From Roseateles asaccharophilus (GTDB lineage Bacteria > Pseudomonadota > Gammaproteobacteria > Burkholderiales > Burkholderiaceae_C), in contig NZ_SNXE01000001.1 of assembly GCF_004362405.1 (NCBI RefSeq), forward strand, positions 248,001 to 312,000: a stretch of 64,000 nt of DNA, given 5' to 3'. A model generated the notes under the pieces. It was given only the letters and a program-made list of their open reading frames with translations. It did no database searches and was not told the origin of the DNA. Of this stretch, positions 4,560 to 51,870 are shown piece after piece; the first letter of the stretch is position 1; every line of letters starts with the position of its first letter. The position numbers were made by a program, and so were the translations under genes.

Positions 4560-6052
4560 TCACTCCCAGCTCAGGCCGGCGAGGTCGTTGACGAAGACGG
4601 GCATGTCCGTCCACAGGCCCTTGAGCGAGCGTTTGGCCACGGTCAGCCACAGGGGCTGGTAGAGGAAGACATTGGCCGCATCCTGGGCGATCAGGCGCTG
4701 GGCATCGCCCAGCAGCTTGAGGCGGTCCGCCTCGCGCGGCGTGTTGTTGATGCGGTCCAGCAGCTTGGCGAACTCGGGGTTCTCATAGCCCCAGTAGTAG
4801 CCGGGCTTGGCGTAGTTGCCCAGGTCGAAAGGTTCGACATGGGCAATGATGGAGAGGTCGTAGTTGCGGTTGGTGTAGACGCCCGAAAGCCACTGCGCCC
4901 ACTCCACGTTCTCGATCTTGGCCGTGATGCCCACCTTGGCCAGCTGGGCCGCCACCACCTCGCCGCCCTGGCGCGCATAGGGCGTGGGCGGCAGCTTGAG
5001 GCTCAGCTCCAGCGGCGTGCTCACACCGGCCTCCTTGAGCAGGGCGCGGGCCTTGGCCGGGTCGAAGGCATTGACCGCGGTCAGGTCCACATAGCCAGGC
5101 GCGCTGGGCGGGTAGTGGCTGCCGATGGGCACGCCAAAGCCGTCCGCCGCGGCCTCGATCACGGCCTTGCGATCGATGGCCATGGCAATGGCGCGGCGCA
5201 CCCGCACATCGTCCAGGGGCTTCTTCTTGTTGTTGATGGCCACGATGGTCTTGGCCCGCGAGCCCGCCTGGATGACCTGGAAACGCGGGTTGTTGCGGAA
5301 CTGGCCCAGGCTGCGCGCCGCGGCCACGCGCGGGAAGGCGTCCACATCGCCCGAGAGCAGGGACGCCACCTGGGCCGCCGGATCGCTGATGAAGCGGAAG
5401 GTGGCGCGGCGGATCTTGATGGCCGCCGCGGCGCGGTAGCCGGCCCACGCGCCCAGGGTGATGCTGGCGCCCTTGTTCCAGGCCTCCAGCTTGTAGGGGC
5501 CGGTGCCCACGGGCTGGCTGGCGTTCTTCTCGGCGCTCTTGGGCTCCACGATGATGGCCGTGGCCTGGCCGATCAGGAAGAGGAAGTCGGGCTCGATGGT
5601 CTTGAGGCCGATCACCACGGTGTTCGCATCGGGGGCGCTGATGAAGCCCATGCTGGCAAACAGGCGCTTGTCCTTGTTGCTGCTCTTCTCGCCGGCGGCG
5701 CGCTCGAAGCTGAACTTCACCGCCGCGGCATCCAAGGGCTCGCCGTTCTGGAACTTGATGCCCTTGCGCAGGCGGAAGGTCCAGGTCTTGAGATCGGGCG
5801 AGACCTCCCAGCTCTCGGCCAGCAAGGGCTTGACCTTGCCGTCCGGGGCGATCTTGGTGAGGGTCTCGAAGATGTTGTAGAGCACGATCTCGGCAATCGC
5901 CGAGGCCGCGCCGGCCGTGGGGTCCAGACCCGGCGGCTCCAGGGTCATGCCCAGCACCAGGCTGCCGTCGCGGCGGGCCTGGGCCCAGGCCGGCAGGCTG
6001 CCCAGGGCACTCAGGCCCATCAGGCCGGCGGCGGCGGAGCGTCGGGTGATCT

Positions 6053-43796: not shown

Positions 43797-44525
43797 CTAG
43801 CGGTAGCGCTGCAAAATGGCCTGCCAGCTCCCATCCTCACGCATGGCACGAAATGCACGCTCCAGATCACCTTGCCGGTTTTGCCAGGGGGAACGCCGGG
43901 AAAGCACCACATGGGCTTGCTGGGCCGCCATACGCAGGGGTTGCTTGACCAGCTCCAGCTGCAATTCCTGTTGCAGCAGATCCCCTTGCAGTTCCGGGAT
44001 CACCACCACATCCAGCCGCCCTCGCACCACCATTTCGAACGCCGTTCGGTAGTTGTTGAGTGCATGCCGGCTCAGGCGCGCGTCGCCATCGAACTCAGGG
44101 CCATAGCGTTTGCCGCGGTGGACAGCGATGCGCAGGCCGAGCAGATCGGCCGGTACCTTGATCACGGGCGCAAAGGGCCGGGTGTAGAAGGCAATCGCGA
44201 CGGGCGGCAGGGGAGCCTGTGTGTAGATCATGAAGCGCTCGCGCTCGGGCGAACGGAAGGGGCCGACCATCAGATCGGCCTCGCCGAGCTCCATCATGCG
44301 CAGGGCACGGGCGGAGGGCGTCTCTTCATAGCGCAAGGGCCAAGCCAGGCGGGACGCAGCCTCGTTGAGCAGGTCGTAGTACAGGCCCGTGGCGCCGCTC
44401 GGGGCAAAAATGCGGTACGGCGGGTCGGCACTCCCCACCACCAGGGCAGTTCTTGAGCGAGCCTGCAGCGCGCCGGGGTAGAACGGCAGCCCCGGGGCCA
44501 GCATGAGCAGTGTGCGACGACGCAT
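43797..44525 (-). CDS. Orphan amino-acid-type periplasmic binding protein (SBP_bac_3)
   Basis: 242 residues, short for the family. It starts with Arg-rich MRRRTLLMLAPGLPFYPGAL, a possible export signal. The fold pattern is clear: VVGSADPPYRIFAPSGATGL, YYDLLNEAASRLAWPL, MELGEADLMVGPFRSPERER and LLGLRIAVHRGKRYG. No transporter genes adjoin it. Codon bias is somewhat weaker than in the neighbours. Ligand unknown; many such lone proteins are predicted sensors or accessory proteins. Confidence 0.82.
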   Translation of the reverse strand: MRRRTLLMLAPGLPFYPGALQARSRTALVVGSADPPYRIFAPSGATGLYYDLLNEAASRLAWPLRYEETPSARALRMMELGEADLMVGPFRSPERERFMIYTQAPLPPVAIAFYTRPFAPVIKVPADLLGLRIAVHRGKRYGPEFDGDARLSRHALNNYRTAFEMVVRGRLDVVVIPELQGDLLQQELQLELVKQPLRMAAQQAHVVLSRRSPWQNRQGDLERAFRAMREDGSWQAILQRYR

Positions 44526-44628: not shown

Positions 44629-45735
44629 TCAGCTCAGCCAGTGCAGCCATCGCCCATGCGGATGCGACCAGGCCAAGGCCTGGGTGCGGACGCCCCCGGC
44701 CTCGGCCATCTGCAGGGTCCACAAGCTGGTCGAGCCCGCCTGATAGCCGGCCGGCAGGGCCTCGGGCGGCCGGGCTTCTGGCGGAGCGAGCGAGGGCGCC
44801 TCGGCACTCAGCCAGGCCAGACCGCGCCGGCGCACCAGATCGGCCACCCGGGCGCGATAGGCCTGCAGCGCCTGCGCCTCGAAGTAGGCCAGCACCCAGG
44901 TGTTGAGCAGCACCGGCTGCACGCCGGGAGGCAAGGCGTCCAGCCATTGCTCCAGGAGCAGCAGCCCCTGGCTGGATGGCTGCACCCGCAGATCGCCGTG
45001 CCGGCGCGCCAGGCCCAGCGCCAGATCCAGGCGCCGTGCGCGCTCCAGATCGCAGGGCCAGAGGCAGGCGCGCAGCCAGCGCGTGGCATCGGCATCCCGC
45101 ACATCCACGGGCGCCAGATCGCAGCCCAGGCGGGCCACCAGGCGCCAGGGCGCAGCGCCGGGCAAGGCCGCCTCGCCCTGCCAGCGGCAAGCCAGGCGCG
45201 GCGTGTCCGGCGCCTCGGGCGCGCCGCGCTGGCCCATGGGGCCGTAGTCGTAGCGGTAGCGGTCCACGGCCAGGTTGAGTCCGGCACTGCTGCCGAAGTC
45301 AAACAGCGCCAGTTCGCTGCGGCCCGTCACTTGGGCCACATGCGAGAGCGCCGGCCAGAGCACCGCACAACGCCCAATCTCATTGGTCTGCGTGGCCCGG
45401 CTGCGCAGATGCTGGATCAGCCCGGCCCGCTCCTGACGCACCAGGTCCAGCAGCAGACCAGGCAGTTCGCCGTCGGGCGCACGCTGGCCGCCACAGCTGG
45501 GGTAGTAGGTCGCCAGGGGGTGGGCCACACCCGCCAGCAGGCGCTCATGCAGGGCCGCCAGCAAGAGATTGGGCCGGCGCTGGGTCTCGGGCGCCTCGGC
45601 CATCAGGGCCAGCATCTCGGGGCTCTCGGCCAGGGCCAGGCAGATCGCCACATAGAGCGGGTCGTCCTGGCACTCGGACTCGGCGAAGCGGCGGTACTGG
45701 GCGGCCCAGGCGGGCAGCAGGGTGGCGATGTCCAT
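44629..45735 (-). CDS. DUF2332 family protein
   Basis: 368 residues, cytoplasmic. It matches the DUF2332 pattern: an N-terminal helical part (AAQYRRFAESECQDDPLYVA), RRPNLLLAALHERLL with HPLATYYPS, LFDFGSSAGLNLAVDRYRYD (resembling a Rossmann or methyltransferase-type loop) and VLLNTWVLAYFE later. The biochemical role of DUF2332 is unknown to me. Start 45735 was chosen for the canonical MDIATLLPAW. It diverges from a Crp/Fnr gene across a 59-base gap with a perfect palindrome, so the two are probably co-regulated. Confidence 0.85.
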   Translation of the reverse strand: MDIATLLPAWAAQYRRFAESECQDDPLYVAICLALAESPEMLALMAEAPETQRRPNLLLAALHERLLAGVAHPLATYYPSCGGQRAPDGELPGLLLDLVRQERAGLIQHLRSRATQTNEIGRCAVLWPALSHVAQVTGRSELALFDFGSSAGLNLAVDRYRYDYGPMGQRGAPEAPDTPRLACRWQGEAALPGAAPWRLVARLGCDLAPVDVRDADATRWLRACLWPCDLERARRLDLALGLARRHGDLRVQPSSQGLLLLEQWLDALPPGVQPVLLNTWVLAYFEAQALQAYRARVADLVRRRGLAWLSAEAPSLAPPEARPPEALPAGYQAGSTSLWTLQMAEAGGVRTQALAWSHPHGRWLHWLS

Positions 45736-45770
45736 GGGCCACAAGCCTAGCCCCACCGCCGCGCCGCAAC

Positions 45771-45786
45771 TGTCGGGTACCCGACA
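45771..45786. promoter_or_regulatory. Perfect 16-bp palindrome between DUF2332 and crp/fnr genes (operator)
   Basis: TGTCGGGTACCCGACA, fully self-complementary, centred between two divergent starts: 35 bases from the DUF2332 ATG and 8 bases before the regulator ATG. The TGT/ACA ends recall a Crp/Fnr-type half-site but the core differs from TGTGA-N6-TCACA. The position just ahead of the regulator's own start suggests autorepression. Confidence 0.6.
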
Positions 45787-45794
45787 ATGCATGC

Positions 45795-46469
45795 ATGGAT
45801 GACTCCGTGGATACCGCCCTGGACGCGGTGCTGGCCGCAAACTTTCCCGGCATGCACATGGCCCCAGCCATGCAGGGGCGCCTGCGCCCCCTGCTGCGTC
45901 TACAGCGCCTGGCGCGCGGCCGGACGCTCTTCGCCCAGGACCAGACCTGCAGCGCCTTCTACGCCGTGGTGACCGGTGAGATCGAAGCCCGGCTCACCGG
46001 CGAGGACGGCCATGTCTCGGTGCTGGAGCATGTGCAGGCGCCGCGCCTCTTTGGCCTGGCCGCTTTTGCCACGGGGCGACCCGCCGGCTACGAGGCCCTG
46101 GCACGGCGCCCCAGCCGCCTGCTGGTGATCGGCCCGGCGGCTTACACCCTGCTCATGGACGAGCAGCCGGGCTTTGCCCGCGCTCTGCTGCGCGAGTTCG
46201 CCCTGCGCTTTGACGGCAATCTGCGCCTGCTGGAGGCGGCACGCCACCGCAGCGCATCCCAGCGCTTCGCCCTCGCCTTGGCTCAGCTGACGCGCGAGCG
46301 AGGCCTCGCGGCCGACGCCGGGGGCTGGCAGGCTGTGGCCGCCACCCAGGCCGAGCTGGCCGCCCTGTCGCATCTCTCACGCCAGACGGTGAACCAGCTG
46401 CTGGGCGAGGCCGTGGCGCGGGGCGAGCTGCGCCGCGGCTATGGCCGGCTGTGGGTGCAGGCCCGCTGA
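45795..46469 (+). CDS. Crp/Fnr-family transcriptional regulator
   Basis: 224 residues: a cyclic-nucleotide-binding-like beta barrel (about 35-130; GRTLFAQDQTCSAFYAVVTG then LFGLAAFATGRPAGYEALAR), a long dimer helix, and a C-terminal HTH (ATQAELAALSHLSRQTVNQL). The Arg/Ser set for cAMP binding is not obvious and there is no N-terminal Fe-S Cys cluster, so it is neither a clear Crp nor Fnr. Signal unknown. Divergent from the DUF2332 gene with a shared palindromic operator. Confidence 0.9.
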   Translation: MDDSVDTALDAVLAANFPGMHMAPAMQGRLRPLLRLQRLARGRTLFAQDQTCSAFYAVVTGEIEARLTGEDGHVSVLEHVQAPRLFGLAAFATGRPAGYEALARRPSRLLVIGPAAYTLLMDEQPGFARALLREFALRFDGNLRLLEAARHRSASQRFALALAQLTRERGLAADAGGWQAVAATQAELAALSHLSRQTVNQLLGEAVARGELRRGYGRLWVQAR

Positions 46470-49300: not shown

Positions 49301-49789
49301 TCACGCCGCCAGCGCCGCCTCGATGTCCGCGCGCAGCTTGTCCGGCGCCTCGTTGGGCGCATAGCGCTTGAGCACCCGGCCGTCCCGGCCCAGCAAAAAC
49401 TTGCTGAAGTTCCACTTGATGGCCTCGGTGCCCAGAAAGCCCGGCTTCTCGCTCTTGAGCCACTGCCACAGGGGGTGGGCCTCGGCGCCATTGACGCGGA
49501 CCTTGGACATCATCGGGAAGCTGACCCCGTAGTTCATCTCGCAGAAGGAGGCAATCTCCTCATTGCTGCCAGGGTCCTGGCCGCCGAACTCATTGCTGGG
49601 AAAGCCCAGCACCACCAGGCCGCGGGCCGCATAGTCCTCCCAGAGCTGCTCCAGGCCCTTGAACTGGGGCGTGAAGCCGCAGGCGCTGGCGGTGTTGACG
49701 ATCAGCAGCACCTTGCCGCGGTACTGGGCCAGGTCCGCGGCCTCGCCGCGGATGGTCTGGGCCTGGAAGTCATAGACGGTCTGGGACAT
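49301..49789 (-). CDS. Glutathione peroxidase (Cys type)
   Basis: 162 residues. The catalytic Cys lies in LIVNTASACGFTPQFKGLEQ, Gln in GFPSNEFGGQDPGSNEEI and Trp-Asn in IKWNFSKFLL, giving a complete GPx tetrad with Cys in place of selenocysteine. No signal peptide. It reduces peroxides, most likely with thioredoxin. It sits alone between fadD and an EamA transporter, same strand. Confidence 0.94.
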   Translation of the reverse strand: MSQTVYDFQAQTIRGEAADLAQYRGKVLLIVNTASACGFTPQFKGLEQLWEDYAARGLVVLGFPSNEFGGQDPGSNEEIASFCEMNYGVSFPMMSKVRVNGAEAHPLWQWLKSEKPGFLGTEAIKWNFSKFLLGRDGRVLKRYAPNEAPDKLRADIEAALAA

Positions 49790-49831
49790 GAGCTTTTCCT
49801 TGCCCCCGGGGCGGGAGCCTTGTGCGGGATG

Positions 49832-50704
49832 CTAGCGCTGACGCTCCAGCGCGGCCAGCACGGCCGCCCCCAGGATGGCCAGGCCGCCGATGGCGGTCTT
49901 GGTGTCCAGCACGCCGCCGCCCAGCCACAGCGCCGACAGCGCCGCCGCCGGCACCTCCACCAGCATCACGATGGCCGTGATATTGGCCGGCAGGCGGCTG
50001 GCCCCGTACTGCAGGGCCAGGTTGGACAAGAAGAACACCAGGGCCATCAGCAACAGGGGCAGCGCCCAGAGCCAGCCCGGCAGGCTGGGAGCGGCCATCA
50101 GGCCGCCGCCCGTCATCAAGGTGGCCACGGCACCGGCCACCAGCACCCCGCCGCCAAACATGGCCAGGGCGCGGGCCTGCGGACTGCGGGCCGCCTCGCG
50201 GCGCAGCATCACATTGTTGAGCGCGAAGCACAGGCCGCCGAGCACACCCAGCCAGTCGGCCGCGCTGGCAGGCAGGGGGAAGCCGCCTTCGGCCGGCCAC
50301 AGCACGGCCGCAGCCCCGGCCAGGGCCATGGCAATACGCGCCAGGGCCGCCGGTCGCAGCGGCTCCTTCAAGATGAGCCGGGCCAGCAGCACCGCCCACA
50401 AGGGCATCAGATAGAAGAGCAGCACCACCCGCAGCACATCGCCCATGGAGACCGCCCAGTTGAAGGCGGCATTGGTGCTGCCCGCGGCCAGCAGGATCAG
50501 CCACAGGCTGGGATGGCGGAAGAACTCCGCCCAGGCCCGCCGTCCGGCACTCAGGCTGATGACCAGCAGGGACAGGGCGTAGAGCAGCACCGTAGTCCAC
50601 AAGGGATGCAGACCAGCCTCCTGAAACTGCCGGAAAGGCCACCATGACAGGCCCCAGACCAGGGCATTGAAGACAAGGGCGAAATAGGGAAGCAGGGCAG
50701 GCAT
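49832..50704 (-). CDS. EamA/DMT-family transporter
   Basis: 290 residues in ten hydrophobic helices, two EamA repeats (first FALVFNALVWGLSWWPFRQF; second from DWLGVLGGLCFALNNVMLRR). The end of repeat 2, ALQYGASRLPANITAIVMLV, is typical. It exports amino acids, nucleobases or drugs; substrate not predictable. Start 50704 chosen for the standard short N terminus. Confidence 0.88.
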   Translation of the reverse strand: MPALLPYFALVFNALVWGLSWWPFRQFQEAGLHPLWTTVLLYALSLLVISLSAGRRAWAEFFRHPSLWLILLAAGSTNAAFNWAVSMGDVLRVVLLFYLMPLWAVLLARLILKEPLRPAALARIAMALAGAAAVLWPAEGGFPLPASAADWLGVLGGLCFALNNVMLRREAARSPQARALAMFGGGVLVAGAVATLMTGGGLMAAPSLPGWLWALPLLLMALVFFLSNLALQYGASRLPANITAIVMLVEVPAAALSALWLGGGVLDTKTAIGGLAILGAAVLAALERQR

Positions 50705-50916
50705 GGGCGATATGACGCCCAGCTGACATGAGGGCGGGAAACGGGAGGGTTGGCTGGCTGCAACAACCCCCTGAAATGCGCTGGCAAAGCCGCTGCGGAC
50801 CGGCCAACAATGCCCAGGGTTTATAGCATGGCGAAACGCATGGCCCTGGCCTTCCAATTCGGCTGCGGTGCCCGCGTCCCGCCCTCACCGTTCGAGCCAT
50901 CTAGGGAGAGCTTCTT

Positions 50917-51870
50917 TTGGATCATCTGGCCTGCTTCACACCGGCAGACTTGCCCTCGACGAACCCCGCCGCCCTGCTGGACGGCTACCGCTGGCACCTG
51001 CTGGCCCAAGGGGATTCCTGGTTCTCGACGGCCGCCGCCCGGCTCGGGGCACATGCCAATCTGCTGCAGGAACTTGTTTTCAAGCAGCGCGCCATGGCCA
51101 TCAACTGCGCCGGTCAGGGCGAGGCCCTGTCCCATATGGTGGACCTGGAGTCCGCCCCCGACTTCGTGAGACTGCTCACCGGCCAGGACGCCCCGGTCTG
51201 GGACGGCCTGCTGCTGTCCGTGGGGGGCAATGACCTGATCGAGGCGGCGCGCACACCGGCCCACACGCCGGGGCAAGACCCGACCCCGGCCGGTCTGATC
51301 CCCCTGCATCTGCGCTTGCTGCGCCACCAGACCGAGTGGGGCGCGCCCTCGCAAGGCGTGGCCCGCTACTTCTCGGAGCCGGGCTGGCAGACCTATGCGG
51401 ACTATCTGCGCACCAATATCCGCCATCTGCTGAGCCTGCGCGACCAGGGCCCCTCGGCGGGCAAGCCGGTGTTCATGCACTGCTATGCCGTGCCCATGCC
51501 ACGCCCGGCCGCCAGCGAGGGCAGCGGCCCCTGGCTCTATCCCACGCTCAAGGCCTACAACGTGCCCAGCGCCGATTGGGCGGCCGTGAGCCGGCTCATG
51601 GTCATGCATCTGGCGCAGCTGCTCAAGAGCCTGGCCGCCGACCAGGAGAACTTCCCCGGCCTGCATGTGTTCGACAGCACGGCCGTGCCCCTGGCCCTGG
51701 CCGCCCCGGGCAGTACCGGCATCAGCGGCGACTGGCACAACGAGATCCATCTCAACCACAGCGGCAGCTTCAAGATCTCCCGGGCCTGGTCCGAGCATAT
51801 CGAGCGCGTGCTCAGTGGCGAGCCGGCCGTGCCGGCACCCGCCCCCAAGCTGCGCGGCCGCGGCCGCTGA
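50917..51870 (+). CDS. Putative SGNH/GDSL-type hydrolase
   Basis: 317 residues from TTG 50917, with AGGGAGAG six bases upstream; no ATG is available near it. SGNH blocks are visible: block I HLLAQGDSWFST, block II Gly in NCAGQGEAL, block III VGGNDLI, block V Asp/His in SGDWHNEIHLNHSG. No signal peptide. Family members are esterases or lipases; this variant has GDSW in place of GDSL and its substrate is unknown. It stands alone, converging with lplT through a dispersed repeat. Confidence 0.82.
   Translation: MDHLACFTPADLPSTNPAALLDGYRWHLLAQGDSWFSTAAARLGAHANLLQELVFKQRAMAINCAGQGEALSHMVDLESAPDFVRLLTGQDAPVWDGLLLSVGGNDLIEAARTPAHTPGQDPTPAGLIPLHLRLLRHQTEWGAPSQGVARYFSEPGWQTYADYLRTNIRHLLSLRDQGPSAGKPVFMHCYAVPMPRPAASEGSGPWLYPTLKAYNVPSADWAAVSRLMVMHLAQLLKSLAADQENFPGLHVFDSTAVPLALAAPGSTGISGDWHNEIHLNHSGSFKISRAWSEHIERVLSGEPAVPAPAPKLRGRGR

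Follow-up and report, generated by a model that had tools for sequence, protein, structure and literature searches.

The closest described systems to the locus analysed here are found among the Crp/Fnr-family regulators. Escherichia coli CRP reads a 16-bp site with a 5-6-5 layout, whose centre lies at about -41.5 at class II promoters, the position that defines a class II activator. FNR, the Fe-S member of the family, has four conserved cysteines, and the recognition helix of CooA carries an Arg-Gln pair. The DNA box of CooA, the CO sensor of the CO dehydrogenase operons of Rhodospirillum and Desulfovibrio, is presented as TGTCGGCNNGCCGACA in one source (PMC545781) and as TGTC-N8-GACA in another (PMC7306483), and CooA is described as a local, not a global, regulator (PMC9603854). 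Its haem site is attributed to His77/Cys75, Pro2 and the loss of the segment equivalent to CRP 72-82 (PMC12937710, PMC6955866); according to one of these accounts, CooA must be without that segment to hold haem (PMC12937710). In ligand-free members of the family, the same source states, salt bridges occupy the cavity (PMC12937710). Further, the residues at CRP positions 180/181 of Crp/Fnr proteins are reported to correlate with the contacted bases (PMC1274295).

The locus lies in a 64-kb window (the whole stretch of DNA under study), in which a gene for a DUF2332 (PF10094) protein (44629..45735, minus strand; Pfam E 1.1e-84) is divergent from a gene for a 224-aa Crp/Fnr-family regulator, hereafter REG (45795..46469, plus strand; PF00027 E 6.7e-13; recognition motif LSRQTVNQLL). 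The two start codons (DUF2332 ATG at 45735 on the minus strand, REG ATG at 45795) bound a gap of 59 nt. As an earlier note on this DNA had observed, the gap holds a perfect 16-bp palindrome, TGTCGGGTACCCGACA at 45771-45786, which ends 8 nt before the REG ATG; that note had also placed it in the middle of the gap, which is incorrect, there being 35 nt on the DUF2332 side and 8 nt on the REG side. The core of this putative operator is TGTC-N8-GACA. Perfect 16-bp palindromes are expected by chance about 0.002 times per such gap; however, the GC-rich window contains five of them against 3.1 expected, and the palindrome by itself is thus modest evidence. The four further examples in the window are at 5976, 43643, 55540 and 60997. 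When the window was searched with the site's own sequence, allowing up to 3 mismatches, the TGTCGGGTACCCGACA site was the sole match, and 13 of 100 shuffles also gave at least one match. The genome-wide site search that the earlier note had called for recovered the exact TGTCGGGNNCCCGACA once only in the 4.36-Mb genome containing the window (the window genome). It is conservation, more than symmetry, that provides the decisive support for the palindrome.

To collect relatives, 200 family genomes were searched for REG at E 1e-20, which gave 20 positives including the window genome. DUF2332 is divergent from REG in 19/19 of the REG-positive relatives, with one intervening gene in three, and REG without DUF2332 was found in none of the 200 genomes. 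DUF2332 itself was above cut-off in 59/399 family genomes and in 2/399 genomes drawn across the order; G698, in which a DUF2332 fragment fell below cut-off, was left out, and three extra pairs were taken from named contigs (Paucibacter sp. and Rubrivivax sp., both listed as Sphaerotilaceae, and a Burkholderiales MAG). We thus read 62 DUF2332 loci in all, 43 with an adjoining REG (REG+; called by tblastn at 1e-6) and 19 without (REG-; REG sought in these genomes at E 1e-5). The test that could have overturned the operator reading, namely loss of the palindrome where the gene pair is kept, went in its favour: a TGTC-N8-GACA-like site precedes DUF2332 in 43/43 REG+ loci, with 8/8 letters in 37 and 7/8 in 6, and in 0/19 REG- loci, with a chance rate of 5-7% per locus. 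The site is not a perfect palindrome in every REG+ locus. A search of the 19 REG- genomes recovered no REG orthologue elsewhere, the best match per genome having 24-29% identity and an E-value never below 1.2e-13; the positive control, REG+ genome G645, gave 50% identity and E 1.9e-51.

On the DUF2332 tree the presence of REG changes 11 times, with as many concordant changes in the site label. Only 4 of these 11 changes are forced by well-supported branches, and in the corresponding independent, well-supported pairs REG and the site go in the same direction in 4/4 (sign test p 0.125). Within each of three genera (g14, g22 and g127), the site is present in the species with REG and absent from the one species without it. 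The site-anchored alignment comprises 42 loci; the remaining one, L126, has a site (TGTCAAACGGTGGACA) that was missed by the 12-letter scorer, and both this site and its 21-nt spacing were read by eye, L126 being counted among the 43. The consensus of the 42 aligned loci is AWTGTCGGnnnnCCGACAWT, with G-7, T-6, C-5, A+6 and C+7 invariant and the central four bases variable. In the relatives read, the site is thus conserved with REG and missing without it, which upholds the earlier note's proposal of an operator linking DUF2332 to the Crp/Fnr regulator: the palindrome is very probably the operator that ties the two genes together.

The geometry of the site is constant with respect to DUF2332. 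A -10-like hexamer follows the operator edge at 21 nt in 38 of the 42 aligned promoters and at 22 nt in 3, with 19 nt chosen by the scorer in 1. The hexamers (TAAGCT in 12, TAGGCT in 9, TACGCT in 8, TATGCT in 5, CACACT in 5 and others in 3; n=42) match TATAAT at a mean of 3.2/6 positions. No -35 was found on the DUF2332 side of the aligned REG+ promoters (mean best 2.5/6 matches), and the 19 REG- promoters have no recognisable substitute -35 (best match per locus 1/6 to 4/6). In the window, the hexamer is TAGGCT (45744..45749, minus strand), 21 nt off the operator edge, and the DUF2332 ATG comes 8 nt past it, which would leave the mRNA almost without a leader. A transcription start 7 nt past the hexamer, at 45737 on the minus strand, would place the centre of the site at -41.5 of the DUF2332 promoter. 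With the start placed in this way, the 21/22 nt spacing puts an activator site near -41.5, in place of the -35, in 41/42 promoters, which is a class II layout. This layout points to an activator-dependent class II promoter, and activation by REG is likely.

In the window (43800-44525) and in some relatives, an SBP_bac_3 gene is found downstream of DUF2332; in others (L056, L058, L060 and L102) it lies between the operator and REG, and it seems to travel with the REG/DUF2332 switch. In these four loci the site is held 34 nt from the DUF2332 ATG, and the hexamer before the SBP gene is 10, 30, 39 and 30 nt from the site, respectively, followed in each by 6 nt and an ATG. Thus, the constant side of the site is the DUF2332 side. 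Beyond REG, 49301-51870 of the window codes for a glutathione peroxidase (PF00255), an EamA transporter (PF00892) and the product of a gene at 50917-51870 that has no Pfam match; the order of these genes is kept in many relatives, several of them without REG.

On the REG side, the right edge of the operator contributes to the hexamer GACAAT (45783..45788, plus strand), a candidate -10 that is followed by 6 nt and then the REG ATG. Since this hexamer is built from the edge of the site, operator-bound REG would mask the possible -10 of its own gene. Site and REG ATG are 7-9 nt apart in 16/42 loci; elsewhere, with the SBP loci excluded and some starts uncertain, the distance ranges from an ATG inside the site (4 loci) to 119 nt. 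Given this variability, autorepression by overlap with the -10 directly fits 16/42 loci, and from the arrangement of these sequences we regard autorepression of REG as on balance probable.

REG has a Crp/Fnr sensor domain of the cNMP-binding type (PF00027, 48.9 bits against a cut-off of 27.5) and a Crp-type winged helix-turn-helix. Its PF13545 score of 23.6 bits is just below the 27-bit cut-off, and the orthologue in G013 scores 32.0. The structure model has a pLDDT of 58.7 overall, with a poor sensor domain and a usable DNA-binding part; in the model, residues 140-224 superpose on NtcA over 81 residues with an rmsd of 1.6. There is also a likeness to the ligand-free members (SdrP, TTHB099 and DdrI). 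By sequence REG matches 2zcw (TTHA1359, which we take to be SdrP) at E 2.4e-5 and 8yz7 at E 2.4e-6, and its DNA-binding model superposes on 2zcw (82 residues, rmsd 2.2) and 3b02 (81 residues, rmsd 2.0), though several cAMP- and 2-oxoglutarate-dependent members match REG at least as well.

The earlier note's remark that the regulator lacks obvious cAMP or Fe-S residues is borne out across the 43 orthologues. The phosphate-cassette Glu and Arg of Mycobacterium tuberculosis CRP align to Leu88 and Ala97 of REG; column 88 is Leu in 40/43 and Phe in 3, and column 97 is Ser, Ala, Gln or Thr, with Arg in 0/43. No Cys is conserved, the maximum being 5/43 in any column. Unlike CooA, REG has Gly87 (43/43) and Ala89 (36/43) at the placed positions of Cys75 and His77, with no conserved His or Cys there, and it retains the segment matching CRP 72-82, which aligns gap-free to M. 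tuberculosis CRP. The N-termini are variable among the orthologues. Every orthologue has Glu100, with Tyr or Phe at residue 99, which suggests that the pocket serves something else or is closed as in the ligand-free members. By residue content, then, the signal of REG would not be cAMP, CooA-type haem or an FNR-type Fe-S cluster, and REG possibly has no signal at all.

Arg196-Gln197 in its recognition helix, which correspond to CRP positions 180/181, are present in 43/43 orthologues, and REG shares with CooA both this Arg-Gln pair and the operator (TGTC-N8-GACA / TGTCGGCnnGCCGACA; PMC7306483, PMC545781), the CooA box being matched in the REG+ loci at 8/8 letters in 37/43 and at 7/8 in 6. With class II E. 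coli CRP it shares the Crp/Fnr family, the 16-bp 5-6-5 site and the centre at about -41.5, but differs in its half-site (TGTCG versus TGTGA), in having Gln rather than Glu at position 181, in being without the cAMP residues and in having a local target.

The relation between the Arg-Gln pair and the box was examined in 42 Crp/Fnr genes, namely 12 from the window genome, out of its 20 HTH_Crp_2 matches, and 30 listed loci out of many more matches in nine relatives. The other 8 window-genome matches were excluded, one being Crp-like and non-RQ (L202, SREMVS) and 7 looking like other HTH families; neither L202 nor any of these 7 has an exact site upstream. Defining RQ-type by the motif [ST]RQ[STR] gave 8 of the 42 genes. 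An exact TGTC-N8-GACA lies upstream of the gene itself in 6/8 RQ-type genes versus 0/34 others, and at least 7 of the 8 letters in 7/8 versus 5/34. Without REG (L205) and a case known beforehand (L219 in G116), the exact-site count is 4/6 versus 0/34 (Fisher p 1.6e-4), and with an apparent orthologous pair (L193, L222) counted once it is 3/5 versus 0/34 (p 0.001). RQ-type genes L199 and L201 are without an exact site. This association supports REG as the binder and also means that REG may not be the only paralogue able to contact the site; among the 12 classified Crp/Fnr genes of the window genome there are four other RQ-type genes (L193, L198, L199 and L201), whose products might read the same box. 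A general rule leading from Arg-Gln to TGTC-N8-GACA is suggested.

TGTC-N8-GACA sites lie just upstream of the RQ-type genes L193 and L198 in the window genome and of L222 and L233. G116 has a different RQ-type Crp/Fnr gene (VSRQSLS; L154:327-1117) divergent from a TPP-enzyme gene, with TGTCGGATTTCCGACA in the space separating the two; the TPP-enzyme gene is sulfopyruvate-decarboxylase-like and falls below the cut-off of that model. The same genome has a porin gene (PF13609) with TGTCGGAATTCCGACA (L182:212-227) and a TAGCAT hexamer 21 nt downstream, and G116 thus appears to hold a second regulon with the same box and spacing.

As to the breadth of the regulon, the exact TGTCGGNNNNCCGACA occurs at the pair in 18/28 REG+ genomes and, among the matches listed, in 8/12 others. 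Away from the pair, 4 exact sites were found in the 28 REG+ genomes (two in G766 and one each in G127 and G739) versus 5 in the 19 REG- genomes (G116, G021, G084 and G716), which is background, and REG therefore seems to act locally, with few candidate sites besides the one at the pair. In this it resembles CooA. All nine exact off-pair sites were read, eight with their flanks (L182-L189) and the ninth as L154, and only those in G116 look regulatory. We also read nine near-matches of the window genome in context, 6 at no more than 1 mismatch from TGTCGGNNNNCCGACA and 4 at no more than 3 from the exact sequence, one being common to both sets. A wider regulon finds little footing among these, 6/9 lying inside long open frames and 3 (C3:1711, C4:114491 and C2:82781) looking intergenic. 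C9:18984 was rejected as a target: it recurs in G013 (L159/L161) within the same conserved protein, which is coding conservation.

C3:1711 (L156:1711-1726, TGTCGCGGCACCGACA) has a GNAT gene on one side and an alpha/beta-hydrolase gene on the other. The hexamer TAGAGT, read by eye in L156, stands 21 nt away, and a further 6 nt lead to the hydrolase ATG, the same layout as at DUF2332; none of the other eight near-matches has a comparable hexamer at that distance. G075, a genome of the same genus, lacks this site in its full list at one mismatch or fewer, and in G180, also of that genus, a similar site occurs elsewhere (L241) with neither neighbour matching. C3:1711 may be due to chance, or REG or a different RQ-type regulator may have a second target here, and the layout of the site leads us to soften the claim of a single target for REG.

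Taken together, we consider it likely that the palindrome serves as operator for the neighbouring REG, in a local switch that activates the divergent DUF2332 gene in class II fashion with limited REG synthesis. Binding, activation, autorepression and the start sites are the parts of this mechanism that we infer. A REG dimer would read TGTC-N8-GACA via Arg196-Gln197 of the recognition helix; bound near -41.5 of the DUF2332 promoter, with its -10 and no -35, it would recruit RNA polymerase; and the same bound dimer would hide the -10 of the apparently leaderless REG gene and so cap REG synthesis. Binding of the operator by REG is very likely. REG might instead bind and repress both divergent genes until a signal frees the operator, as the site is near both starts and Crp/Fnr repression has been predicted where sites overlap the -10 (HcpR at sat and apsAB, as given in PMC545781). 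However, a repressor site need not hold a fixed distance of 21-22 nt upstream of the -10, as this one does in 41/42 promoters, and help is required where a promoter has no -35, which makes dual repression an unlikely reading.

Alternatively, REG could be a mere neighbour of a site whose main binder is another RQ-type paralogue. The window genome has four such genes, two of which (L193 and L198) have exact TGTC-N8-GACA sites of their own, but the site follows the presence of REG (43/43 versus 0/19), and at least two REG- genomes, G021 and G116, have RQ-type paralogues (L233 and L219, respectively) yet no DUF2332 site; we therefore hold a paralogue to be a very improbable main binder. Finally, a perfect inverted repeat could be a structural element of RNA or DNA (a terminator or an attenuator) or arise by chance in a window with five such palindromes against 3.1 expected. 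This is scarcely credible, since the conserved letters are the outer TGTC/GACA with the central four bases variable, no loop or T-run after the palindrome can be read from the sequence, and the site has a tight linkage to REG and a 16-bp CRP-like layout.

The neighbour of REG is DUF2332, whereas that of CooA is CO dehydrogenase. Sequence searches gave no PDB relative of DUF2332 (the best, at E 0.0012 and 0.15, were judged unrelated), no NCBIfam match, nothing from another Pfam family below E 0.06 among 42 members and no usable PHROG match for 3 proteins. An AlphaFold2 model from 4 sequences was poor (pLDDT 49). A glycine-rich segment, LFDFGSSAGLNL, resembles methyltransferase motif I, and against a class I SAM-dependent methyltransferase profile (built from 11 of the 24 methyltransferase matches in the window genome) DUF2332 matched only weakly at motif I, over 15 columns (P 0.0096, probability 4%); the same comparison with the REG profile as a control gave P 0.29. 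These data offer a hint, and only a hint, of a methyltransferase-like glycine loop in DUF2332. Among open-licence PMC papers we found none on DUF2332, COG4427 or PF10094, and none in which Crp/Fnr occurs together with TGTCGG.

We propose tentatively, and with some doubt, that there is an unstudied subfamily of Crp/Fnr proteins that needs neither haem nor cAMP to read the CooA box; that one operator serves two genes within 59 bp, as the class II site of a near-leaderless gene and, by its edge, as the -10 of the other; and that the Arg-Gln pair predicts a TGTC-N8-GACA autoregulatory site. The REG/DUF2332 pair is probably a further local Crp/Fnr switch of known type, with a useful residue-to-operator rule. 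DUF2332, a domain of no assigned function, is now tied to a specific regulator, operator and predicted promoter, making its induction testable. Moreover, the link from Arg-Gln to TGTC-N8-GACA offers a cheap prediction of operators for orphan Crp/Fnr regulators; if it is true, the operators of many such regulators would be readable from sequence.
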